From IMG/VR virus record IMGVR_UViG_3300032820_000089, positions 1 to 27,238 of that record: a stretch of DNA of 27,238 bases; one strand, written 5' to 3'. The DNA is from a virus. A model generated the notes under the pieces. The model was not told the DNA's origin. It worked only from the letters and a program-made list of their open reading frames with translations, and searched no databases. A program made the translations under genes and the position numbers. Of this stretch, positions 53 through 20,723 are shown piece by piece (within the stretch, counting starts at the first letter, position 1; the number at the start of each line of letters is the position of its first letter).

Positions 53-3000
53 CTATTCCTGTTTATTGGATCTTACTATAGGAATCCTTTTTGATAACTG
101 TTCATATCTAGCTTGGATCATCTCTGCTCTGAGTTCAGGATCTTCTGTCATGAGATTCTTCCAAGCTTGATTCCTAATCAATCTCATGACTCTTCTGAAT
201 ACTGACTTCTGCATCTCCGTAGGCATATGCGACCATTGATCATTTTCCGTTATTTTCTTTAGGATGCCTTCTACATCTAGTCTTCCAATGTAATTATTAT
301 ACTTCTGATATGCATTATTAAGTTTTATTCCATTGGGATCTCTTTCATCTATCTTGATATTTCTCAAGTCAACATCAAACTTATCTGTGCTAGGACCACC
401 AGCACCATATAGAAGTTCACTTATTTTCAGCATAGGATTCTCCTCATCTGGTACTGCTTCTGAGTACTTGAATGGTGAGAAGTGTTCCAAAGCTCGAAAT
501 CCTCCGGGTTTCCATGACTCATGCTGTTCAACAGGTTTCCCAGTTATCGTATTGTGCTCAACTCCAAAGTAATTCCATAACCCCGGAAATGCTGCCTGCC
601 AAGCACTCATGATCCCTTCTGTCTTCCTTCTGTAATTATCATTCAAGAACTCCATGCCGGGTATGGAAGAAAGAGGGTTCTGAGAGGCAATTCTAGGTAC
701 GAAACTCTTTACCATATTGGTCATGAAGTATTCAGCTTTCCCGCCTCCTTGACTCCAAGCACCTGCTGCATCTAGAGCACCCTTCATGTATGCTCCATCA
801 AGGACGTTTACCATTGCCATAACCATGAAGCCTACAATGTCTTGTCTCTGGTCATCTGTTAGATGGTCAGATAACTGCACATAATCTGCTGCTGCTATCA
901 AGAACATCTGCCAAGGATCACCTCTATCTATACTTATATATTTCTTGGTTCCATCCTCTGCTTCTATTTCAAAGGATTCTGCTAACCACCCTCCTGTCTC
1001 CATGATCCTTCTTTGATTTGAATCTGGAGGACCAGTTCCAATTAGGCGTACCTGACCAAGACCCTCAATCTTTATACCATCATTGGCTAGGATCACTGCT
1101 GATCCATAGAGTGTGAGTGCAGTTGATGCCTTACCTACAGCATTTGCTCTCCTTACACCTCCAGCTAACCAATCGTCTCTTATTGTTCTAAGTGCAGGAT
1201 TGAGTGCTGCTACAAGTTCTCCTATTCCCGGTATGAATGTAAGAGGTGCTAAGGATCTTCCAATGAATCCTCTGAATAGCCAAGCAGGAGTTCTGACAAA
1301 TGGCATGATTAGAGCCACAGAAGGATGCTTGTTCTTAGCAGCATTAACAGTGGCAGCAAATCCATCTACCAAAGGTTCTGCAAAGTTTACCTCTCTGGCA
1401 TATTGCATAGCCTCATCATTGATACCTCTACCCATCTTGTCGAAACCTGCCTCAAAATTGTCTACAACATATTGGGCAATTAGATCCTTTTGGGTCTTCA
1501 CATCAAACTTATCCATAGCCTGCTTTAGAAGTATCTCCCTCCACTTGGCCCTGAAAGAAATCTGATCATAGAACTCTTTCGATACCATTCGTAACCAACT
1601 AGGCCACCTTACAAAACGCCTTCCTATAAAATCTATAGTATTGCCTAGTGCATTATTCATATCATCAGAAACAAATAAAGACCTTGCAGCATTACCTAGA
1701 TCAGAGCGTGGTTTGTCAAACCCATAGCTTCGCATCTCTCCTCTCTCTGCATTCATGTACACATCCCCACCCTTTTTCTTGCCAAAACCGGGGAATACTT
1801 GTCCTATCCTCTCTGTTGTTATGGCATGCTGTGCTGTCTCTGTATGTCTGATTGTAGGATCTAGCTGTGGAATTTCAGTCTTCATTACTTTATGGGCAAT
1901 GGCTAAAGATTCTCTTATTGCATTTGCATACCCATAATAGAGACCTGCACCATCCTTTATGGACTGCATGTTTGCAGTGACAACTCCTCCAGCAATCCTC
2001 TCAGCAGGTAACAACAGAAGGTGAATACCTGTAGATACAACATCAATAGTCAGAGATTTCATGGAGGATAACAGACCATTTATCCTGAACTCATGAACCA
2101 TATCCCAAGCTAGCTTGCTCTTACTCATCATCCTCAAAGCTTTGAGACTAACCATGTTATTTGCAGGATTTCCAGCAGCAATAATATCTCTGGCAATCTT
2201 CAATGACTGCTCTTTACCTCCCTTGGACCTGATGATATCTTCCATTATGGATGGATCTAGACCTGCTACCTTTATGTTCCCTGCTTGAACTGTTCTTGCT
2301 GCTCCTCTATTTATTCTCAGTACACTTGTGTAAACATCTGCAAGCTTGTCTATAGCCAAGTGTAGCTTGGCAACATCTGCATCAGAACCTCCTGCTACTG
2401 CCTTATGAGCCATTGCATAGATAGACTTGGCATAAGTTGCCATGAGAATCTTTGCTTTTATCATGTGCATAGGGAGATCTTGAGTCTGATCAGCTATATT
2501 TTTTAAGTGTTTATGAACTAAACTATTCTCAACTCCCATTATATTTGCTATATCATCTAGCTGAGTATTTGTCTGTTGAGCTAGTTCTTCTTTTGCAGCA
2601 GCAAGTGTTTCCTCATTTGTGAGGACATCTCCGGGTTTCCTTGTACTTCTTCTAGTTTCAACACTAATGGTAGATGGACCTTGCTTGGGACCAAACCTAT
2701 CCATCAATTTCTCTTCTTCAATGAACTTACCAACTGCCTGCATGACATCTTCTACTTCCGTACCATCATCCCATGCCCTCATATTCATTCCGATTTCATC
2801 AACAATTCTTTCTACAGGGTCTCCTTTAGCAATTCCTGCATCTATAACTGCTCTGAGTGCTAGACGATCTTTACCTGTAAGGAATACAGGAGTACCACCC
2901 TTGCCAAATACCTGATCGAATAGCTGTTTGGTATCAGGTTGTATGGAAAGCTTCATAGGAGAGTTATGGACATTCCTATATAGCTCTTCCATCCAATCCT

Positions 3001-6000
3001 TCATCTTTCCAAAGTGAGGATTCAGTCCTTCCAATGATGTTCCAGCATCAGTCAGCCACTTCTCAAACTCCCTAGCAAACTTTTCTTCCATGTGTCTTGA
3101 CCACACCCCGTTCTTTATTCCTAAAGACTTTTCTAATGCTCGCAACTGCTCTTTAGGCATGTTCTTTCTGAACAAGTGTCCTATCTCATGGATTACAGTA
3201 GTGAAATCTGAAGGTTCATACTTTCTTCCATACTTGTCAAAGAAGGATCTAGTAATGAGGTGTATTCCTTGCTGACCCTCTTCACCAAAGGAGGTAGCAC
3301 CCCTTATTGCCCTATTTTCAGACAGTTGGGCAAGTACCATAGCAGTATTATCTATGTCACTATGCCCTGTATATCCTTGAATCTTATCCCACATCCATTG
3401 ATGAAGGATATGAGCATCCATATTCTTCAATCGAATGACATCGTCTGGCAATATAGTACCATCAGAAGGTATGTTGGCTTTTATGTGATCCAGCAAAGTT
3501 TGATTCTGATCTTGAAGTCTTTGGATCAGGTCTCTCTCATACTGATTGCCTTGGAAATGTACCTTTAGTGCTCTGTTGAGATCTTCAAGTCTTTTGATTT
3601 CCCCCTTGATTGCACGTTGCCCTCTAAGTTGTCCTGTTATCAAGAACCTTTGTTGAACAGAATCCATTGTGAAGGTATCACCAACACCTATATAATGCTT
3701 TAGGAAACCTTCTTTCCTTCTTTGTACCCCCTTGATATCTCGAATTATTTTCCCTAGAACCTTAGTATCATAGTCCTCACCAAACTGTTTCATGTGGTTG
3801 TTGACTTGATCTGTAATACCCTGAAGATCTGTGATGCCTCCTTGCAGTGACTTATGGGCTTTATCTCCTTTCACATTTCTATAGGCTGGAACACTGCTTA
3901 TCGGTTCAGGTCCTGCCTCTCTCATCCATGCAGGAAGGATATTTAGCCTTCTGAATGCTTCTCTACCACCTGCTGCTGCCCTCACTTGAACCAGTTCTTC
4001 CCAAAGTTCTCCTAAGTATACGTTGTGATTAGACAAGGCATCTAGAGCAACCTTGCCAGTGGGACTCATCAACCATAGTGAAGCAAGATCTTCAGGACGA
4101 ATTTTATCTTGTGCTGCTTTAGAAGAAACTGAATCTGAAAAGAAGGATTGATTTAAATACTTATTACCGCCAAGGTTACTTGTATCCTCTACCCAATCTG
4201 TAAACAGGACTATCTTGTCCAGTGCATCTGCCGATGTATTACCCTCTAGTTTCAATCCATGCTTTGCTTGAGACAGCATCTTACTGGTATTCAATGCACT
4301 ACTAAGCTTCACCCCCTTTGTTTCCCTATAGTACATAGGATTTCCTACTGCTCCTGCTCTAATCCTACCTACTACTGTTGCCCAAGATGCTCCACCTGTC
4401 TGTTGAGATGCAGCAGTTAGTAAGGTTGCCTTGATAGTATCTCTTACTGTAAGTTCACCATTCATAAGTTTTTCTCTTTGAAACCTTATGAATTTGGACA
4501 TCTTGTCTAGATATTCAGGAGGTGCTTTCCCTAGGAATGCAACCATATCTTCCATGTTGTTGAACTTCACAGAATTGAAGAAGTGCATGAGTTCATCAAG
4601 TGTTGTCTTGTGATCCAATGCAGTGGCAGGACCATAGCCAGTTTGTACTCCAGCTTTTGCTAATATTTCTTCTTGTCCCGGTGTAATGTTCCCATCCTTA
4701 TCCTTCATTGATTCTACATTGACACCGCCTTTTGAAGCAGGTCTTACGGAAGGATGTCCTTTTCCTTCATCAGGTATGCCTCCCCTTTGTGCTAAGTAAG
4801 ATCTATTTCCATCAAGAGGATGGAAAGGTTCTGGCACTGCTACAGGATCATAGTCAATCCTCCAATAATCACTGTCTACAGTTCCAATACTCTTTCTGTC
4901 AAATCCTACACCACCGGGACGGGTGACATATTCAAACTCTTCTTCAGTTCCCTTTAGGAAAAATACATTCTCCCCTTCTTTTACAGTTTCATTATTATCT
5001 AAAACATGAATGCCTGTCCTTTGTCGTATCTTTCCTTCATACTCTCCTGATAAATAATGAATTCCTTCTGAAGTGACTGCTATATCCTGACCGTTATCTC
5101 TTGCTATCTGCTTGGCTTGATCTGATAACATACCGGGAAATACAAATACATCATACTCAGAACCATCTGCTGCCTGTCGCGTATGAACTGCATAGCCTTT
5201 AGGAAGATTTAAAGTCTTTGCAACTTCTTCTATGTTAGGCATATCCTGTGAGGAGATAAGCGTATAGGGAGTTCCATCCCCCATGGGACCTTCTCTCCCT
5301 TTTGCCAAATCAGCTTTGTCCCAGAATCTATTTGGATCAAACTCAGGCAGAGTAAAGGCCCCTCTAGGCAAGGGCATGTTGAGAGTGGCTTCATTAAGAC
5401 CTTGTTGCAAGAATTGATTCAAGTCCTCAAACTTACCTGTCTTGGCAAGCGTCCTCATTATCTGCATGGTGACTTGCATCTTGGCAGGATTCATTCCCGG
5501 TACTAATGTAAGGTACTGCCTGAAGATATTCTCATCATGGAGATGAAGAACTGCTCTGCCCTCAATTACTTTGCTATGTAGTAATCTGAAGTCTTCTGCA
5601 TTAGTTCCAGCTAACTTTGCTGCTTTCTCATACTTACCTTTTGCAATAAGATCATTAACTCCTCGCCCTCCTTTGAGTATGGGTATGAGGAGAACTTCAG
5701 CAACCATACCTATTCCCATACCTTCTAAGACATTCTTCATCCTTCCTTCTAGCCATGCATCACTTTCATCTGCTGCTAAGTATCTAGTGACCGCATTATT
5801 CAACAAAGGCACTTCTGTCATGAAGTTTGACAACCTCTGTTCGTGCTCTTTGAAAGCAATAAGATCTGCTACAGCACCTATACTCATTCCCCTTCGGAAT
5901 TTCTGCCAAGTGAAGAATCCTGCACCAGCAGTATCTTTATTTGAAGCCCACTTTACGAACTGTCCTGCCCTAGATCCTGCTGCGTATGCACCTAATCTAG

Positions 6001-6613
6001 TACCTCCAAGTAGAGCACCAGCAGCACCTCCAGTACCTACAATTGCTGCATATGCCATGGCAATCTGGGTGATTCCTCCAATGATATCCCCCAACCAAGT
6101 CCTTGGCTTGAACTGATCATTCAGATCAATTTCACCAAACCTGAATCCTCCTTTTGCATTCAGTCCTGTAGCTTCAGCAAGCTTGATAGTACTGTTAGCT
6201 ACATCAGTTCCTAGATCGAGAATAGATTCAATGAATCCCAATCCACCATACGCTACCCCCCTTGCAGCATCCTCAAAGTAACTGACATCCTCCTGAGCTT
6301 CAGTTGGAAATGTTCTATCATCCCCATAGAAGTTCGAGTCTGTTCTATTATTAGAAGGATCTAAAGGGGAAGGTAATCCTCTTCCTTCTGCTGAAGGCAT
6401 ATGCTTTGGAAGGGGTATGGATGGACCTTCTGCATCAATGTCTTCAGGATCTTGGAATGGGTGAGGTTCTTCTGATGGAGGTGCAATTGGTAGCCAATTT
6501 GGAATAGGAGGAGTTGCTTCAGGTACTACAGGTGCTACAAGTGCTTCCTCTTCTTCCTCTTCTTCAGGAACAAGAGGACTGTCAATTGTAGGATCTAATT
6601 TATTCAGTTCCAT
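53..6613 (-). CDS. Internal virion protein D (T7 gp16-like), giant, with HExxH metallopeptidase-like motif
   Basis: 2186 residues (T7 gp16: 1318), the largest gene here; expected to be ejected into the host and to help translocate DNA. Residues 1-85 are acidic and proline-rich, with a run of seven Glu. Residues 175-205 form a Gly/Ala-rich hydrophobic stretch (GGITQIAMAYAAIVGTGGAA). In the middle is VIHEIGHLF, an HExxH zinc-site motif (H1142, E1143, H1146), followed by EEKFAREFE, where E1176/E1177 could be the third ligand. This resembles peptidase domains of phage polyvalent proteins. The C-terminal half has hydrophobic segments near 1528-1548 and 1766-1810 with MPFVRTP (1770-1776), a motif I associate with large ejected virion proteins. 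I do not see the N-terminal lytic transglycosylase of T7 gp16. An AAAGG site precedes the ATG. Confidence 0.88.
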   Translation of the reverse strand: MELNKLDPTIDSPLVPEEEEEEEALVAPVVPEATPPIPNWLPIAPPSEEPHPFQDPEDIDAEGPSIPLPKHMPSAEGRGLPSPLDPSNNRTDSNFYGDDRTFPTEAQEDVSYFEDAARGVAYGGLGFIESILDLGTDVANSTIKLAEATGLNAKGGFRFGEIDLNDQFKPRTWLGDIIGGITQIAMAYAAIVGTGGAAGALLGGTRLGAYAAGSRAGQFVKWASNKDTAGAGFFTWQKFRRGMSIGAVADLIAFKEHEQRLSNFMTEVPLLNNAVTRYLAADESDAWLEGRMKNVLEGMGIGMVAEVLLIPILKGGRGVNDLIAKGKYEKAAKLAGTNAEDFRLLHSKVIEGRAVLHLHDENIFRQYLTLVPGMNPAKMQVTMQIMRTLAKTGKFEDLNQFLQQGLNEATLNMPLPRGAFTLPEFDPNRFWDKADLAKGREGPMGDGTPYTLISSQDMPNIEEVAKTLNLPKGYAVHTRQAADGSEYDVFVFPGMLSDQAKQIARDNGQDIAVTSEGIHYLSGEYEGKIRQRTGIHVLDNNETVKEGENVFFLKGTEEEFEYVTRPGGVGFDRKSIGTVDSDYWRIDYDPVAVPEPFHPLDGNRSYLAQRGGIPDEGKGHPSVRPASKGGVNVESMKDKDGNITPGQEEILAKAGVQTGYGPATALDHKTTLDELMHFFNSVKFNNMEDMVAFLGKAPPEYLDKMSKFIRFQREKLMNGELTVRDTIKATLLTAASQQTGGASWATVVGRIRAGAVGNPMYYRETKGVKLSSALNTSKMLSQAKHGLKLEGNTSADALDKIVLFTDWVEDTSNLGGNKYLNQSFFSDSVSSKAAQDKIRPEDLASLWLMSPTGKVALDALSNHNVYLGELWEELVQVRAAAGGREAFRRLNILPAWMREAGPEPISSVPAYRNVKGDKAHKSLQGGITDLQGITDQVNNHMKQFGEDYDTKVLGKIIRDIKGVQRRKEGFLKHYIGVGDTFTMDSVQQRFLITGQLRGQRAIKGEIKRLEDLNRALKVHFQGNQYERDLIQRLQDQNQTLLDHIKANIPSDGTILPDDVIRLKNMDAHILHQWMWDKIQGYTGHSDIDNTAMVLAQLSENRAIRGATSFGEEGQQGIHLITRSFFDKYGRKYEPSDFTTVIHEIGHLFRKNMPKEQLRALEKSLGIKNGVWSRHMEEKFAREFEKWLTDAGTSLEGLNPHFGKMKDWMEELYRNVHNSPMKLSIQPDTKQLFDQVFGKGGTPVFLTGKDRLALRAVIDAGIAKGDPVERIVDEIGMNMRAWDDGTEVEDVMQAVGKFIEEEKLMDRFGPKQGPSTISVETRRSTRKPGDVLTNEETLAAAKEELAQQTNTQLDDIANIMGVENSLVHKHLKNIADQTQDLPMHMIKAKILMATYAKSIYAMAHKAVAGGSDADVAKLHLAIDKLADVYTSVLRINRGAARTVQAGNIKVAGLDPSIMEDIIRSKGGKEQSLKIARDIIAAGNPANNMVSLKALRMMSKSKLAWDMVHEFRINGLLSSMKSLTIDVVSTGIHLLLLPAERIAGGVVTANMQSIKDGAGLYYGYANAIRESLAIAHKVMKTEIPQLDPTIRHTETAQHAITTERIGQVFPGFGKKKGGDVYMNAERGEMRSYGFDKPRSDLGNAARSLFVSDDMNNALGNTIDFIGRRFVRWPSWLRMVSKEFYDQISFRAKWREILLKQAMDKFDVKTQKDLIAQYVVDNFEAGFDKMGRGINDEAMQYAREVNFAEPLVDGFAATVNAAKNKHPSVALIMPFVRTPAWLFRGFIGRSLAPLTFIPGIGELVAALNPALRTIRDDWLAGGVRRANAVGKASTALTLYGSAVILANDGIKIEGLGQVRLIGTGPPDSNQRRIMETGGWLAESFEIEAEDGTKKYISIDRGDPWQMFLIAAADYVQLSDHLTDDQRQDIVGFMVMAMVNVLDGAYMKGALDAAGAWSQGGGKAEYFMTNMVKSFVPRIASQNPLSSIPGMEFLNDNYRRKTEGIMSAWQAAFPGLWNYFGVEHNTITGKPVEQHESWKPGGFRALEHFSPFKYSEAVPDEENPMLKISELLYGAGGPSTDKFDVDLRNIKIDERDPNGIKLNNAYQKYNNYIGRLDVEGILKKITENDQWSHMPTEMQKSVFRRVMRLIRNQAWKNLMTEDPELRAEMIQARYEQLSKRIPIVRSNKQE

Positions 6614-9600
6614 TAGTCATAACCTTTGGGCCAAGTTGTGGTGGAGATATGGCAATACTAGCTCGAAGCATAGCCCGCCGAAGCCTCTCATCTTCAAGTC
6701 TTTTATCTTCCTTTATTCTCTTGGCACGATCTTTAGGTGATTCAAGTGCTTGGTTAACCATACCCATATAGGCATTGCTGCCTATTTTAGCTATTGTTCC
6801 TACTCCTCTATTCATCCACTGTATCCATCCTATTGGATCTATTTCTGCTAGAGTCCTCACCACTGATAAGTCTGGATAATCCTTTGATTGAAGACGATGG
6901 GGAAACTCTATATTTTCAGGAGTCCATTCAGGGTCTATAAGCTTCAACTTATCAACTTCTCTATCAAATACCTTTTTCCAGTTCTTCCTTATAGTTTCTC
7001 GGGATAGTAGAACTCCATTTTCATCTTGAATAACCCATCCATATTCAGCCAACCACGGCTGTGGTGCACCTTGTCCTTTATTCCATTGATCAAGAATAAC
7101 TTGGTGTCCCTCTGGTTTATCTGACAGTTTTTTCAAGGTAGCTGGATCTATTTCCACCATGAGAAATCTAGGTATGGAAAGTAGACTCTCAAGATTCTTA
7201 GCATATGGATACTCAGATCTGTTTTGCTGCTTATCAAATCCAAGAATTATATTGTCTGGGCTGATTGCCGAAGTAGGTATTATACGGGATCTACCTAGCT
7301 CCAAGTCTCTTTCATTCCTGAACCCACGAAACTTTGGTAGTATGCCCACTTGTGCCACATTCCTAGATGGCATAGAACGAGCTATAGGATAGTCAAGAAG
7401 ACTTACTTGTTTGTTCTTCAGTCTTTCTATCTCTTCACTAATAGAGCTTTCATTAATACCCTGTTTTTGTAGTAAAGAGTGCATCCTAGTAAAGTAATTT
7501 TTACCTGTATTACCTCCTCTTACTATCACAAATTTTGCATTATCAGAAAGACTATCAAAAGTAGATCTATCATGGGTAAGCCAACTCAAATATTCGGCAT
7601 GATCTCTCTCTATGTTTCCTATGGATGTAGCTTTGTCCCGTGGTATTGACTCTCCATCTGGACCTATAACTGACCCACCGTATACTCTAAAATCTTTAGT
7701 TTCTGCTGTGTATCTATTTATAGATGTGAGGGGAAATACAGGAATAACAGTGTTTTCTACATCAGTTACTCCTGACCCTTGAAGATTTATTAATGAATTC
7801 CTCCATAACTCTGCTCCTGCTTCTGCTGCTCTCCGATTCAAGGGACTAAGACTACTATCTTGTAATTGATCTAAAATTCTATTATACCCATTCCATACTG
7901 CTCGAATAGAAAGATTTCTACCTTCCTTTCTAAGACTTAGAATATGTTCTATTGTACTAGTAGTATATTGTCGTACTGCATTATCATCTGAATCTGGGGA
8001 AGCTACCCTACTATTTAGAAGGTCAAGCTCATTTACTAAGTAAGATATATTATGTCCAGAGGTTTCTTTATCTGGAACTGCTTGGGTTGGTGGAGATACT
8101 TCATCTGATATAGGTGGGGTTGCTTCACCAATGAGTCTATTAAGGCTATCAAGTATATTGTAGTTACTGGGTCCCTTAAATATCTCAGTGCCATCAGAAG
8201 AAATGACAGTAGTGGGTGCTCTTGGATCTACAGGAAGAACCAGATCTCCAGTATCTCCATAATAGGTGTTGAGAGGATACTTTCTTATTGCTGCCTCAAG
8301 TCCCCTAAGCTCAGCTGTATCTCCAAAGAAGTTAGATAAAAGATCCTTATGCAGAACCAGATCTGGATTCCAATCTTTACGAAGAGGACTATCTGGATCA
8401 CCTTCATTCAGTCTTATAAGGTATGCATCAAAATGAGAGGATATTGTCTCCTGAATTCTAGCAGTACTTGCTATTCTTTGGAACTTAGTAAGACTATCAA
8501 GTCTTGCAATATTAGCAGCTTGGTTTGTACCCGATTTCCCCGTACCTCCCGTAACGTAATCAATACCACCAGATTCTGCTAAAGATTTTTCTAGGTTATT
8601 CCTTTTATCACCAATAGGAAGATCTTTAAGGGATTGGCTGTAAGCAGTTGCTGCTAGAACTCCAATAAGTTGGTTGGTCAGTGCTTTAGCTTCGTCCGAA
8701 TTACTAAGTATAAGAGCTTCTGCCTTTGATCCAAATCTCTTTGCCATAGCATCTTGCGTAGCTTGATCTTTAACTGCATATAATGCCCATTGATTCTGTG
8801 CATCTGCCAAGTCAGCAGTAGTTGTTGCTGATCTTATGAGATCACTAGTATCACTAGTAGCATTAGCTATTTCTTGCGTAGTGAGTTCAGCAGGATTGGA
8901 GTAGTTTCTTGTCAGGAAATTTGCAGCTTCTTCTATAGCTTTCATGTCAGACCACCTTGGAGTACCATCCTCATTTTTCCAAGCTTTCAATGCTCGGACT
9001 AAAACTCTCGGATCTGAATTTCCAGCAATGAGTTCCATGACTTTGGGGTTCTGTGATACCGAAGCAACAATGTCATCTGGATCTGAAGTATTGTCTTCAC
9101 GCAACTGTGTGGCTATTCCCTCATTAAGTAGCTCTAGCTCATGTATCTGAGCTATCCCATATGTATCCTTTGTCCATATAGGTCTACCCTCTATCTTAAC
9201 TCCCTTGATTAACTCAAAAGCAGTATCTATTCGATCAATAATATCACTTATAATGGAAGGACTTTCCCCTGCTTTATATGCAGTTTTTAGTCTAGTTTGT
9301 TGTATCTTAAGAAATCCATCAAACCCCTTAATCATAGAAGCTCTGGTATGTAGACCCCAAGGGGATGGAGACTTATTAGAGATATTTTGCACCAATGTGT
9401 TAAAGTTGTCTTGAGCCTCTTGGTCCTTTACTATTCCCTGAGCAACAGCCGGATATGCAAGTGGATTAGCTCTAAGTACTGGACCGGGATGAACTAGTGC
9501 AGCACCATGTTGATCTCGAACTTCAGTACCATCATCACTAATAAGTAACGGGTTCTCTAGCTTGCTTTCCCCGCTAGGATCTGTTGCCTCCATAAATATA

Positions 9601-10205
9601 GAGGTGGTTTCAGCAGATTGTGCTGCTGCTATGCTACTTTGTAGGACTCTGTTATGCACATACCTGAAAGCTCTTTCTTTCTGACCAACATACTTATTTT
9701 CTTCCAAGCTGAAAGATTCCCGTGCTATAGGATTACTGCCCCATGGTTGACTATTCAGCCATGCATCTCTTTGCTCTTTAATATATTTTAGTGCTTCATC
9801 TTGAGTCATTTCAGCAGTATTACCAAGCTGTTGTGCAATCTGTTGGGCTTTAGGTTCCCATGTACCTGCTCCTCTTTCACCCATAGCCCTGAAGTACGCC
9901 TCTTCCAAGTGTCCCTGACCAAATGCCCCCTTGCCCTTACCTTTTAGAATATCTTGATTTGCATCCTGAAAAGCTAGACTTCTACCTAGAGCAGAAGACC
10001 ATTTAATATCCTCCTTCTCTTTTGTCATGCGAAGTTTGTGTACACCTTCTCCTAATTCTTTCATTCCCTCCAAGATATCTGTAGGAGTTCTTACTTGTTC
10101 TGTTGGTTGTAGCCGATCAGTACGACCTCTGTAACCTACCTTTGTTCCTCTTGCTTCGTTACGCAAAATATACTGTAGTTGTCGTAGGTCTCTGGCATTA
10201 GCCAT
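6600..10205 (-). CDS. Internal virion protein C (T7 gp15-like), very long
   Basis: 1201 residues against 747 for T7 gp15. In T7 this protein forms the periplasmic part of the DNA ejection conduit with gp14 and gp16. Here it begins MANARDLRQLQYILRNEARG and continues as a mostly helical, polar protein without signal peptide or membrane helices. Lower-complexity spacers occur (for example PPISDEVSPPTQAVPDKE around residue 700). I see no enzyme motif. Assignment comes from gene order, size class and general composition, since gp15 proteins diverge quickly. The start overlaps the gp14-like stop (TAATG) and the end overlaps the gp16-like gene by 14 nt. The extra 450 residues have no obvious domain identity. 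Confidence 0.82.
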   Translation of the reverse strand: MANARDLRQLQYILRNEARGTKVGYRGRTDRLQPTEQVRTPTDILEGMKELGEGVHKLRMTKEKEDIKWSSALGRSLAFQDANQDILKGKGKGAFGQGHLEEAYFRAMGERGAGTWEPKAQQIAQQLGNTAEMTQDEALKYIKEQRDAWLNSQPWGSNPIARESFSLEENKYVGQKERAFRYVHNRVLQSSIAAAQSAETTSIFMEATDPSGESKLENPLLISDDGTEVRDQHGAALVHPGPVLRANPLAYPAVAQGIVKDQEAQDNFNTLVQNISNKSPSPWGLHTRASMIKGFDGFLKIQQTRLKTAYKAGESPSIISDIIDRIDTAFELIKGVKIEGRPIWTKDTYGIAQIHELELLNEGIATQLREDNTSDPDDIVASVSQNPKVMELIAGNSDPRVLVRALKAWKNEDGTPRWSDMKAIEEAANFLTRNYSNPAELTTQEIANATSDTSDLIRSATTTADLADAQNQWALYAVKDQATQDAMAKRFGSKAEALILSNSDEAKALTNQLIGVLAATAYSQSLKDLPIGDKRNNLEKSLAESGGIDYVTGGTGKSGTNQAANIARLDSLTKFQRIASTARIQETISSHFDAYLIRLNEGDPDSPLRKDWNPDLVLHKDLLSNFFGDTAELRGLEAAIRKYPLNTYYGDTGDLVLPVDPRAPTTVISSDGTEIFKGPSNYNILDSLNRLIGEATPPISDEVSPPTQAVPDKETSGHNISYLVNELDLLNSRVASPDSDDNAVRQYTTSTIEHILSLRKEGRNLSIRAVWNGYNRILDQLQDSSLSPLNRRAAEAGAELWRNSLINLQGSGVTDVENTVIPVFPLTSINRYTAETKDFRVYGGSVIGPDGESIPRDKATSIGNIERDHAEYLSWLTHDRSTFDSLSDNAKFVIVRGGNTGKNYFTRMHSLLQKQGINESSISEEIERLKNKQVSLLDYPIARSMPSRNVAQVGILPKFRGFRNERDLELGRSRIIPTSAISPDNIILGFDKQQNRSEYPYAKNLESLLSIPRFLMVEIDPATLKKLSDKPEGHQVILDQWNKGQGAPQPWLAEYGWVIQDENGVLLSRETIRKNWKKVFDREVDKLKLIDPEWTPENIEFPHRLQSKDYPDLSVVRTLAEIDPIGWIQWMNRGVGTIAKIGSNAYMGMVNQALESPKDRAKRIKEDKRLEDERLRRAMLRASIAISPPQLGPKVMTNGTE

Positions 10206-15922: not shown

Positions 15923-16086
15923 TGTAAAGCACCTTTCTAGTAAGAATACAATTAGGACTACATAAGGAACACAACCTGTTGGTGTCAAGGAGACAGACAG
16001 ATTGGGTTGCCCGACGTATCGGACCCAATTATCTAGATTACTAGACTTACAACAGAAATAGATCCTCTAAAGGCTACCTTAAAGGA
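15923..16086 (-). promoter_or_regulatory. 164-nt leader of the major capsid gene
   Basis: The longest gap without a gene in the window. It holds a bulged 11-bp hairpin at 16001-16029 (listed separately), a small inverted repeat TCTAG-ATTA-CTAGA at 16032-16045, and the capsid ribosome site (AAGG about 10 bases before the ATG). In T7 the strongest late promoter (phi10) precedes this gene, so a phage promoter is expected here. I do not see a T7- or SP6-type promoter sequence. Confidence 0.4.
16001..16029 (-). promoter_or_regulatory. Strong hairpin upstream of the capsid gene
   Basis: Inverted repeat: 7 bp (ATTGGGT with ACCCAAT) plus 4 bp (CCGA with TCGG), separated on one side by a 3-nt bulge and closed by a 4-base loop. 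No T-run follows on the minus strand, so it does not look like an intrinsic terminator. An RNase processing site or a 5' stabilising structure for capsid mRNA is plausible by analogy with the RNase III sites of T7. Confidence 0.5.
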
Positions 16087-16350
16087 TCACTCTTTTATCT
16101 CTCTGATAGTATCATTTAGAATAGCTATCTGATTCAGATCATGACGTACATAAGAGGGCCAAGGACTCCTATCCAATAGCCACTCCTTAGTACTGTCACT
16201 GAATTCTATAGGTTGAAGCCATTCTAAATCATCATTGATAGGAGAGCACTTACATCCTATCAAGGATATCACTGTCATTACTAGGAGTATTACGCTTAGA
16301 AATCTTGGCAAATATGGCAGATCTCCTGATGGATTCTTTGAGTGATGCAT
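16087..16350 (-). CDS. Putative outer-membrane lipoprotein spanin subunit (Rz1-like)
   Basis: 87 residues with a lipoprotein signal: charged N-terminus, hydrophobic core (FLSVILLVMTVISL) and a lipobox LIGC with the lipidated Cys at residue 33. The mature 55-residue part (CKCSPINDDLEWLQPIEFSD, then TKEWLLDRSPWPSYVRHDLN) is short and proline-containing. 'W..PI.FSD.T..WL' followed by 'WP' is a pattern I associate with small lysis lipoproteins next to holin genes in environmental phages. The gene begins inside the Rz-like gene (101-nt overlap, different frame), with GGAAAGGG just upstream. The best interpretation is the o-spanin partner. An unrelated lipoprotein, for instance one acting in exclusion, is less likely given the neighbours. 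Confidence 0.65.
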   Translation of the reverse strand: MHHSKNPSGDLPYLPRFLSVILLVMTVISLIGCKCSPINDDLEWLQPIEFSDSTKEWLLDRSPWPSYVRHDLNQIAILNDTIREIKE

Positions 16351-16459
16351 TGACCCTTTCCAAGCGTCCCTTCTGTACCAAGGTTCTGCTATTCATGTAG
16401 GAGAATAGGGATTGGAATGCTGATAGTGCTAGGGTCACAATCCTAATAAGACCAAGCAT
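16250..16459 (-). CDS. Putative inner-membrane spanin subunit (Rz-like)
   Basis: 69 residues: an N-terminal hydrophobic segment (LIRIVTLALSAFQSLFSYM) followed by a basic helical region (QKGRLERVNASLKESIRRSAIFAKISKR) and a polar end (NTPSNDSDILDRM). This is the plan of a short i-spanin: membrane anchor at the N-terminus and a coiled-coil-prone periplasmic part. It starts seven bases after the holin candidate stop, with GGGG and AGG upstream. Its last third overlaps the lipoprotein gene below in another frame, the arrangement known for Rz/Rz1 pairs, which together fuse inner and outer membranes at the end of lysis. The assignment is by architecture and neighbourhood, not by clear sequence similarity. 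Confidence 0.6.
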   Translation of the reverse strand: MLGLIRIVTLALSAFQSLFSYMNSRTLVQKGRLERVNASLKESIRRSAIFAKISKRNTPSNDSDILDRM

Positions 16460-16465
16460 AGCTAC

Positions 16466-16663
16466 CTACCCCTCATTCTGTGGAGGAGTGATAGCTTCAA
16501 CCTTATTGGTTGCTATCTCTAGCTTATCCAATGCAGGCTTCAGTGCCTCTAGGATCTTGTCATCCTTCTTAGTGGGAGTGATCTTGACCACGATGGCAAT
16601 CAAGCCATACGCTGCAAGAAGTCCCGCACAAATTTCAGTCCAATTAGAAAATAACCATTCCAT
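16466..16663 (-). CDS. Small one-span membrane protein, holin candidate
   Basis: 65 residues with one hydrophobic helix (about 12-29, AGLLAAYGLIAIVVKIT), a short N-terminus starting MEWLFSNWTE, and a helical charged C-terminus (DDKILEALKPALDKLE). No signal-cleavage site is seen. Small one-span proteins with a charged helical tail beside spanin genes are usually holins, which permeabilise the inner membrane at lysis; T7 gp17.5 is 67 residues with one span. AAGGA stands nine bases before the ATG. The two genes directly downstream look like spanins, which supports a lysis role, but the location between scaffold and capsid differs from T7. A non-lytic membrane protein remains possible. Confidence 0.6.
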   Translation of the reverse strand: MEWLFSNWTEICAGLLAAYGLIAIVVKITPTKKDDKILEALKPALDKLEIATNKVEAITPPQNEG

Positions 16664-16668
16664 AGTAT

Positions 16669-17436
16669 CTATCCTTTATTGACAAAAGGTGAAGAACCTA
16701 CTCTTTGTTCCCATTCTGCCCTGTATGCAGGATCAAGCTCAAACCTCTTATCTTTCCTAGCCTCAACTGCTTCCTGAATACTGACAAATGGTTTGGGACC
16801 TGACTGCTGTGAAGAAGTAGTTCCAGCAAGAGACTTTGGTGCTGCCCCTACTGACTCACGATACTTATTGTTTAGTTTAAGTACAGCAACTCTTACAGCA
16901 TCTCTATCAGAAGATTCTAAAGTAGTGTTTATATCCGTTATCTCAGAAGCAGATAAGTGATTACTAGCCCATCCCATCAGGCTATTATAGGATTCCTCTC
17001 CTCCTGCCATACCAAATATCTCTTGAGTAAACTCCTCAACTTCACCCTGTCTATATTGAATATACTTATCCACTTCTCCCTTGCCTAAACCAAACTTAGA
17101 TTGCAATTCAGTATAAGTCTCTTCCTTAAGAGTGTTGTTGTTAGTACGAAACTCATCCTCGTACTTAGTTAGATTGAAGGAATCTTCTGATCCTTCTTTG
17201 GATACCTCCTCAGAAGCACTACTTTCCTGAGTAGTTTCTTCAGGCTTACCTACCTTCCTTTCCAATTCTACATAACTGGACAGCAAGGATACAGTATCAA
17301 TCTCTCCTGATTCCTTATTCCAGAACTTATCTGGAACACCATCAGGTTTCTCACTTGCATCGGGATCATTGCCAAGTGATACAGAGGAACCACCACCGGG
17401 AGGTCCATCACCTTCTAACTGTACTGACTCTACCAT
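16669..17436 (-). CDS. Capsid assembly scaffold (T7 gp9-like)
   Basis: 255-residue acidic protein expected to guide procapsid assembly and then leave the head. The N-terminal 90 residues are disordered, Gly/Pro/Ser/Glu-rich (GDGPPGGGSS, then PDKFWNKESGEID, which is common in phage scaffolds). The middle is helical, with LQSKFGLGKGEVDKYIQYRQ and EEFTQEIFGMAGG. The C-terminus is basic and ends ELDPAYRAEWEQRVGSSPF, where scaffolds usually contact the coat. GGAGA lies seven bases before the ATG at 17436. Its place between portal and capsid supports the call. T7 gp9 has 307 residues. Confidence 0.88.
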   Translation of the reverse strand: MVESVQLEGDGPPGGGSSVSLGNDPDASEKPDGVPDKFWNKESGEIDTVSLLSSYVELERKVGKPEETTQESSASEEVSKEGSEDSFNLTKYEDEFRTNNNTLKEETYTELQSKFGLGKGEVDKYIQYRQGEVEEFTQEIFGMAGGEESYNSLMGWASNHLSASEITDINTTLESSDRDAVRVAVLKLNNKYRESVGAAPKSLAGTTSSQQSGPKPFVSIQEAVEARKDKRFELDPAYRAEWEQRVGSSPFVNKG

Positions 17437-19962: not shown

Positions 19963-20723
19963 AGCGTGATCTCCTTGGTACTGAATGAGTAGTTGTCTGA
20001 TCTGAGAATGCGTGATACCCTAGCCTGAATCAACGCATCTTCCTCTGTCTTTCCTGCCTTCCTATAAGCGGTCACCACATTTGTCCATGCTCTATCCCCA
20101 TGAAGCTGGATCTTTCGAGCAGTCACAGGACCCACACCGGGACAGCCACTATACCCATCACTGCTATCTCCTACCAAGGTCTGGTGTAGGTGGTTCACAT
20201 TGCTTACCTCATCAGATATCCAAGTGATACCTTCATCAGGCTTATTAGGATTGTAGTGTCTACCCGGTATAGTCTGAAGATCTTTGTCTACTGATACCAT
20301 GACACAATCTTCAGGTATCAAGTGCTCATCTGTAGCTAAGATACCCAGTATGTCATCAGCCTCTAGATCCTTTATGCAATAGGTCTTGTATTCCTCAGTC
20401 ATCTTCTCCTTTAGAAAGCCTACTAGCATGGGTCCTTCACGGTTCTGTCTATTTGACTTATAGCTAGGCAACAGCTTATGCCTGAAGTACATCCTTCTTG
20501 GGTCTGAAAAGGCAAGGATAATAGGGGACTCTTCTATAGTTGTTCCCATCAAGGATGATACCTTGGCTTGCAGATCTGAGATATAATCCTGAACTTGTAT
20601 CCATGCTTCATTCCCATCTGCAAACATGGAGTACACTTCATCACTCCACTTGATAGGCACTTGAATTGCTGCTCCTATTTGAACAGCAATCGTATCCGCA
20701 TCCACAATGATACTAATTTTCAT
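19950..20723 (-). CDS. 5'-3' exonuclease, FEN/PIN family (T7 gp6-like)
   Basis: 257-residue flap/5' exonuclease expected to remove RNA primers and to take part in genome maturation and host DNA breakdown. It shows the metal-binding acidic clusters of the family: VDADT near the N-terminus (D8, D10), the central DLEADDILG, and SVDKDLQTI. These are followed by the helix-three-turn-helix DNA-binding region GDSSDGYSGCPGVGPVTARK. The start at 20723 has AAGGAGA eight bases upstream, and it lies 18 nt after the polymerase stop. Its 3' end overlaps the next gene by 13 nt. Length and position fit T7 gene 6 (about 300 residues). Confidence 0.93.
   Translation of the reverse strand: MKISIIVDADTIAVQIGAAIQVPIKWSDEVYSMFADGNEAWIQVQDYISDLQAKVSSLMGTTIEESPIILAFSDPRRMYFRHKLLPSYKSNRQNREGPMLVGFLKEKMTEEYKTYCIKDLEADDILGILATDEHLIPEDCVMVSVDKDLQTIPGRHYNPNKPDEGITWISDEVSNVNHLHQTLVGDSSDGYSGCPGVGPVTARKIQLHGDRAWTNVVTAYRKAGKTEEDALIQARVSRILRSDNYSFSTKEITLWRP

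Follow-up and report, generated by a model that had tools for sequence, protein, structure and literature searches.

A likely late lysis cassette, with a predicted overlapped spanin pair, between the scaffold and capsid genes of a T7-like phage

Three small genes set between the scaffold and capsid genes of a T7-like phage appear to form a late lysis module, a reading that we hold with good confidence: an overlapped spanin and a one-span partner, encoded at the end of the portal-scaffold transcript. We infer the membrane topology, complex formation, transcript structure and lysis function of this module. The 69-aa product of gene 2 would be anchored N-terminally in the inner membrane, and the lipoprotein encoded by gene 3 would sit in the outer membrane; their periplasmic parts (~48 and 55 residues, respectively) would bind each other and join the two membranes after the cell wall has been cut. 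Gene 1 would provide an LTPTxxDD-family protein that spans the inner membrane once and acts together with the spanins, most likely as a holin or a holin-regulating partner. The three genes would be read at the end of the portal-scaffold transcript, with a terminator-like hairpin limiting read-through into the capsid gene.

Gene content, conservation and chance level

The window, i.e. the whole stretch of DNA analysed, is a linear IMG/VR fragment of 27,238 bases from a T7-like phage, with its genes read from the minus strand. The gene order runs from RNA polymerase, ssDNA-binding protein, endonuclease I, primase/helicase, DNA polymerase, exonuclease, portal and scaffold through the three small genes to capsid, tail tubular proteins and internal virion proteins. 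The window ends directly past a 2186-aa virion-protein gene, short of the tail fibre, the terminase and any distal lysis genes, and the genome beyond this end may carry a second lysis set. The features discussed below are:

16669..17436, minus strand: scaffold (capsid assembly) gene, upstream of the cassette (phrog_1052, E 2.5e-38)
16466..16663, minus strand: gene 1, 65-aa one-span protein of the LTPTxxDD family, holin-like (hydropathy, phrog_9685/phrog_402, gene context)
16250..16459, minus strand: gene 2, 69-aa i-spanin-like protein (N-terminal hydrophobic segment; charged C-terminal domain ending DILDRM)
16087..16311, minus strand: gene 3, 74-aa o-spanin-like lipoprotein (probable TTG start; lipobox Cys codon 16254-16252)
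16061..16088, minus strand: hairpin with a 12-bp stem, a 4-nt loop and a T-rich tail, at the lipoprotein stop codon
14819..15922, minus strand: major capsid gene, downstream of the cassette (phrog_267, E 6.9e-63)

The initial annotation had read three consecutive small genes here, between scaffold and capsid genes, and both points hold: the open reading frames are present on the minus strand (16663-16466, 16459-16250 and 16350-16087), with PHROGs matches to phrog_1052 and phrog_267 on either side. Its lipoprotein also stands, as regards the lipobox LIGC and a start within the preceding gene in the +1 frame; what needs revision is the start codon. An in-frame ATG upstream at 16350 would give an 87-aa product (16350-16087). 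Related contigs start the gene with GTG, at which position the window has CCA, preceded one codon upstream by TTG (16311). This arrangement favours the 74-aa product (16311-16087), and judging from the aligned sequences the lipoprotein probably starts at TTG 16311 rather than at ATG 16350. With the TTG start, gene 3 overlaps gene 2 by 62 nt in the window; the overlap in the relatives is 59 nt.

Related contigs were obtained by capsid searches (L001-L005 and L012) and by a gene-1 search (L014). All five that span the scaffold-capsid gap (L002-L005 and L012) keep the trio in the same order, a favourable outcome of the synteny comparison suggested in the initial annotation, and L001 and L014 carry the portions of the cassette that lie within their reach. 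At the protein level, four relatives are 69-74% identical to the window in gene 1, and six are 55-67% identical in gene 2 and 53-64% in the mature lipoprotein; the seven gene 2 sequences align free of gaps. Median pN/pS values are 0.26, 0.23 and 0.41 for genes 1, 2 and 3 (six sequences each, overlapping stretch included), next to 0.36 for the neighbouring capsid gene and 0.40 for the scaffold gene (five sequences each). All three cassette genes are under purifying selection.

A strict detector was used that requires an ORF with an N-terminal hydrophobic segment and a lipobox ORF starting inside it in a different frame; it misses the embedded pair of T7 and several pairs visible by eye, and its counts are lower bounds. 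Applied to both strands of the whole window it reports one pair only, and it reports none in 100 dinucleotide-preserving shuffles of the window. The cassette with its overlapping pair is more than chance.

PHROGs was searched with the 22 main genes of the window and Pfam with 14 of those, and no hydrolase or endolysin is recognised among them. The endonuclease I and primase genes overlap, and hence there is no lysozyme gene at the place of T7 gene 3.5. Among the virion proteins, the 2186-aa protein (window 53-6613) matches phrog_6651 (E 1.8e-21) and, marginally, phrog_9880, and a 1201-aa protein (window 6600-10205) is without a PHROGs or Pfam family. Using the 2186-aa protein as a query toward the tail fibre end found no relative, and a capsid profile found no match in bacterial genomes.

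The predicted spanin pair and the family of gene 1

The best reading of genes 2 and 3 is a two-component overlapped spanin, which we consider highly probable. Architecture and conservation support the overlapping i-spanin/o-spanin (Rz/Rz1-like) pair proposed at the outset. In overlapped two-component spanins, membrane-localisation signals and gene architecture are more diagnostic than sequence. The N-terminal anchor of gene 2 has a 19-residue hydropathy of 1.72 (1.72-1.96 in the clade); on the same measure annotated Rz proteins or i-spanins score 2.25 (Pseudomonas phage AF), 2.42 (Proteus phage Saba) and 1.35 (T7 gp18.5). Lys and Arg are commoner after the hydrophobic segment than before it, as in the annotated i-spanins compared. 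All seven clade lipoproteins carry a lipobox-like motif, scored with a permissive pattern, with a Cys at residue 19-20 after a hydrophobic stretch. The usual lipobox residue three before the Cys is Leu; LIGC is found only in the window lipoprotein, and all six relatives have Ser at this position. Besides the lipobox Cys there is no position shared in the clade at which a periplasmic Cys could form an intermolecular disulfide; a second Cys in the mature lipoprotein occurs only in the window and L001, at differing positions. The predicted periplasmic lengths of 55 residues for the mature lipoprotein and ~48 for gene 2 add up to ~103, which falls inside the combined range of 62-300 residues given for overlapped spanins in the available portions of a published survey (PMC6139136).

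Known spanin and holin families, against which the initial annotation had proposed a search, give no significant match to genes 2 and 3 of the window in PHROGs or Pfam. Among the relatives, one of six lipoproteins reaches phrog_456 ('Rz-like spanin') at an E of only 0.39 and one reaches another family at E 0.26, and one of five gene-2 proteins reaches the holin family phrog_1350 at E 0.1. The window lipoprotein and the L005 trio proteins, each used singly as a query against the phage collection, produced no credible match, the window lipoprotein alone found nothing among viral contigs, and profiles of genes 2 and 3 recovered only the clade itself from those contigs. The same survey, a catalogue by Kongari et al. 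(2018), lists in the portions used here 228 overlapped spanin systems in 677 genomes, with singletons making up 80 of 143 i-spanin and 54 of 125 o-spanin families, and 196 o-spanin genes found unannotated and 64 with wrong starts (PMC6139136). A family match is not required by definition, since many families are singletons.

Gene 1 is probably a lysis membrane protein and perhaps the holin, a proposition to which we assign roughly even chances. The protein has one hydrophobic segment (19-residue hydropathy 2.15) and no second one, with no Lys or Arg before the segment and four within the 15 residues after it. An alignment of the window protein, four relatives and the homologue in the uncultured phage S45-C18 matches phrog_9685 with six of six sequences (best E 5.9e-15) and also phrog_402; the window protein alone reaches E 8.3e-4 and 2.6e-4, respectively. 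Both families are annotated as of unknown function. Gene 1 has no match to a PHROGs holin family and none to a Pfam family, and a four-protein search with the family profile gave no significant similarity to T7 gp17.5 (E 0.041) or to gp50 of Pseudomonas phage LUZ100 (E 0.053). In single-sequence searches of phage records, the best match of the window protein is not credible (E 2) and the L005 protein has none.

A gene-1 profile scan of viral contigs found at least 107 relatives, the best 80 of which were kept; four were too short, leaving 76 evaluable. In these IMG/VR loci (best 80 of at least 107), a spanin-type pair lies directly downstream of the gene-1 relative in 34 of the 76, as against one of 1,067 other ORFs (>=60 aa) in the same loci, with a detector devised after part of those loci had been viewed. 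Four loci failed by the detector (L017, L019, L026 and L036) show pairs by eye. It is important to point out that the sample is skewed: at 60% identity the 92 family members analysed form 18 clusters, the largest of which holds 61, and this largest cluster also accounts for 30 of the 34 positive loci, so that strict positives occur in only 4 of the 13 clusters with evaluable loci, or 6 of 15 scanned when the window clade and S45-C18 are added. Three further pair cases are recognised by annotation or by eye, namely Salicola phage CGphi29, Aeromonas phage phiARM81mr and L034. In CGphi29 the second of two genes that come after a weak gene-1 homologue (E 0.05) is annotated as an Rz-like spanin, and in phiARM81mr an annotated holin and endopeptidase directly precede a weak homologue (E 0.6). 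Among the selected neighbours scanned, 8 of the 18 clusters have hydrolase or peptidase genes adjoining the family gene or close to it; these genes comprise Phage_lysozyme, Amidase_3, M23 and C39-like types above the cutoff, CHAP and VanY below it, and two annotated cases.

That the overlapping lipoprotein frame is a chance ORF is exceedingly improbable and already disfavoured. The frame is short and its start codons (TTG or GTG) are weak, but it is kept well past the overlap in 7 of 7 sequences, with the median pN/pS given above, and the shuffles contain no such pair. It is also quite unlikely, though less so, that the three genes encode minor head or scaffold-associated proteins with a fortuitous lipobox. 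Their position within the head module would fit such proteins, as would the lack of a database family that assigns a function, the matches of single relatives being weak. Against this, the Cys, the signal-like N-terminus and the overlap are conserved in the clade, and gene-1 homologues adjoin spanin-type pairs or hydrolases in phages outside the scaffold-capsid setting.

A more serious contender, to which we give somewhat less than an even chance, keeps genes 2 and 3 as spanins and takes gene 1 to be a spanin-linked partner or antiholin, with the true holin encoded past the tail fibre, as in T7, and thus outside the window. Several observations point this way: LUZ100 carries a gene-1 homologue (gp37) as well as an annotated type II holin (gp50) after its tail fibre; phiARM81mr has its annotated holin and endopeptidase just before the weak homologue; in G007, a T7-like relative discussed below, a 73-aa protein beside the small terminase gene matches phrog_5225 (unknown function, E 7.7e-6) and, weakly, the holin family phrog_689 (E 0.02); and the family profile is not significantly similar to T7 gp17.5 or LUZ100 gp50. 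On the other side, a hydrolase gene directly adjoins the homologue in L015 and L068, with no other holin candidate noticed close by. The earlier designation of gene 1 as a holin candidate is thus retained in part: it is a one-span membrane protein whose relatives often precede spanin-type pairs, while its identity as the holin is not established given the separate annotated holin of LUZ100 and the weak candidate of G007.

Hairpins and expression of the cassette

The hairpin at the lipoprotein stop codon (16088-16061) recurs at this position in every one of the seven clade sequences, all of which fold. In the alignment 96.4% of cells are paired and both sides have changed in 7 of 12 pairs, a level reached in none of 500 shuffles. 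A terminator scan of 4.8 kb yields 6 terminator-like sites, compared with 2.9 in shuffles. The hairpin is most likely an intrinsic terminator; an RNA processing site is possible. With this hairpin between the lipoprotein and capsid genes, the cassette appears to close the portal-scaffold transcript and to be insulated in part from the capsid gene. The initial annotation had proposed that expression just ahead of the capsid leader would couple the cassette to the head genes. Coupling to capsid gene expression is doubtful, weakened as it is by a conserved hairpin with a T-rich tail at the lipoprotein stop in all seven sequences; coupling to the expression of scaffold and portal is plausible.

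Two other hairpins were observed nearby. One in the capsid leader (16026-16004, minus strand) is also conserved, with 97.5% of cells paired and changes on both sides in 3 of 8 pairs; its sample comprises six sequences (five distinct), L012 having been missed by the search pattern and left out. The other is a strong terminator-like hairpin directly after the capsid gene (14771-14739, minus strand), within the tail tubular A ORF when this is read in its long form (start 14808); the true start of that ORF is probably further downstream.

Lysis-type genes ahead of the capsid gene in T7-like phages

The scaffold-capsid gap of LUZ100 (OP329100) contains gp37, an unannotated N-anchored ORF (L094:20198-20434) and the overlapping lipoprotein gp38. 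gp37 is a homologue of gene 1 (E 2e-3 to the S45-C18 protein), and gp38 starts inside the unannotated ORF, the pair covering L094:20198-20540 (record about 20275-20617). Matches to gp38 at E up to 1 are found in 34 phage records, self included, and in 17 of these 34 (Pseudomonas AF, Proteus Saba, mEp390 and others; some duplicates) a spanin or Rz annotation underlies the match; the best non-self match among annotated Rz1 proteins or o-spanins has an E of 3e-3. Excerpts of the LUZ100 report state that no apparent spanin genes could be annotated (PMC10134795). Judged by sequence, LUZ100 apparently does have a spanin pair between scaffold and capsid, and placement together with the LTPTxxDD flag may correct this no-spanin case. 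The window-clade lipoproteins show a similarity to the LUZ100/AF type that is suggestive only (hhalign E 0.0023, probability 12.7%), and gene 2 shows none to its LUZ100/AF-type counterpart.

A wider comparison used 30 of 61 RNA polymerase relatives (all <=40% identical), 18 of which gave a capsid match. By eye, lysis-type ORFs stand ahead of the capsid gene in 11 of these 18 records, from roughly four lineages; the strict detector alone reports a pair there in 3 of 18. G007 has the same trio as the window in its scaffold-capsid gap, and a scan of ~41.3 of its 41.6 kb revealed no second spanin-type pair with a detector whose known misses include the T7 pair. Ahead of the capsid gene, G010 and G012-G016 have an N-anchored ORF overlapped by a lipoprotein ORF, along with a small membrane protein of another kind than gene 1, the scaffold gene of G012 lying outside the stretch compared. 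In G001-G003 (L159, L160 and L175) a 154-aa protein with hydrophobic stretches is encoded between scaffold and capsid, and in all three records a lipobox ORF is embedded in another frame of its gene. G008 (L165, reverse complement 302-721) encodes at this place a 139-aa lipoprotein with a C-terminal hydrophobic stretch, which resembles a unimolecular spanin. The remaining seven records (G004, G005, G009, G011, G017, G018 and G020) show no lysis-type ORFs before the capsid gene by eye, G020 being judged from a listing identical to that of G018. Just upstream of the capsid gene, G017 and G018 carry what we take to be a psbA-like photosystem gene, as does the G020 listing (L172-L174).

Among further phages, S45-C18 has the trio in the scaffold-capsid gap, with the lipoprotein ORF embedded in the second gene; Bordetella phage BB8 encodes in this gap a hypothetical protein of 130 aa that contains hydrophobic stretches; in HTVC019P and CRP-125 the gap encodes a short basic protein and nothing else. 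Published accounts, as far as the sections consulted extend, place several lysis genes of Roseobacter Autographiviridae inside the head-neck-tail module (PMC11092137) and lysis genes of cobaviruses next to internal virion protein genes (PMC6775973); the corresponding sections of a 2025 survey of lytic proteins say nothing on gene position (PMC12596118). Among the papers retrieved, no title or abstract opening announces a spanin pair between scaffold and capsid, and our claim to novelty is limited to that level.

Taken more broadly, several T7-like lineages may keep outer-membrane lysis genes in the scaffold-capsid gap, within the head module; the LTPTxxDD family (PHROG 9685/402) may represent an overlooked lysis protein of wide occurrence that accompanies overlapped spanins and shows where they lie; and LUZ100 may have its spanins in that gap. 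We regard this overall picture as evenly poised. Spanins are short, mutually dissimilar and often unannotated, and phages therefore get reported as being without them. Lysis genes of environmental T7-like phages would be easier to annotate with a position (the scaffold-capsid gap) and a flag gene (LTPTxxDD) to go by, and the placement, together with a terminator-like hairpin ahead of the capsid gene, makes the timing of lysis relative to head assembly testable.

Compared with known systems, the window pair resembles the overlapped spanins of the P2 type, as the accessible parts of the catalogue describe them, in pairing a small N-anchored protein with a lipoprotein whose +1-frame gene begins within that of its partner and stops past the partner's end (PMC6139136); it differs in being set between head genes and in having no significant PHROGs or Pfam match. 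Desulfovibrio phage ProddE (MZ666938), also T7-like, has annotated lysis genes in its scaffold-capsid gap; unlike those of the window, they encode an endolysin and a two-span putative holin, and the strict detector found no overlapping spanin pair in the 12.9-kb stretch scanned. LUZ100 shares with the window both the gap and the order of an LTPTxxDD protein, an N-anchored ORF and an overlapping lipoprotein, whereas its spanin sequences are not demonstrably homologous and it has a T7-like amidase (gp17) and the distal holin gp50. T7 itself, with the holin gp17.5 and the spanins gp18.5/18.7, offers the same predicted set of functions in a T7-like phage; its lysis genes follow the tail fibre, as the initial annotation had rightly noted in calling the place of the cassette different, and its o-spanin is fully embedded, whereas the predicted o-spanin of the window extends beyond its partner and stands just ahead of the capsid gene.
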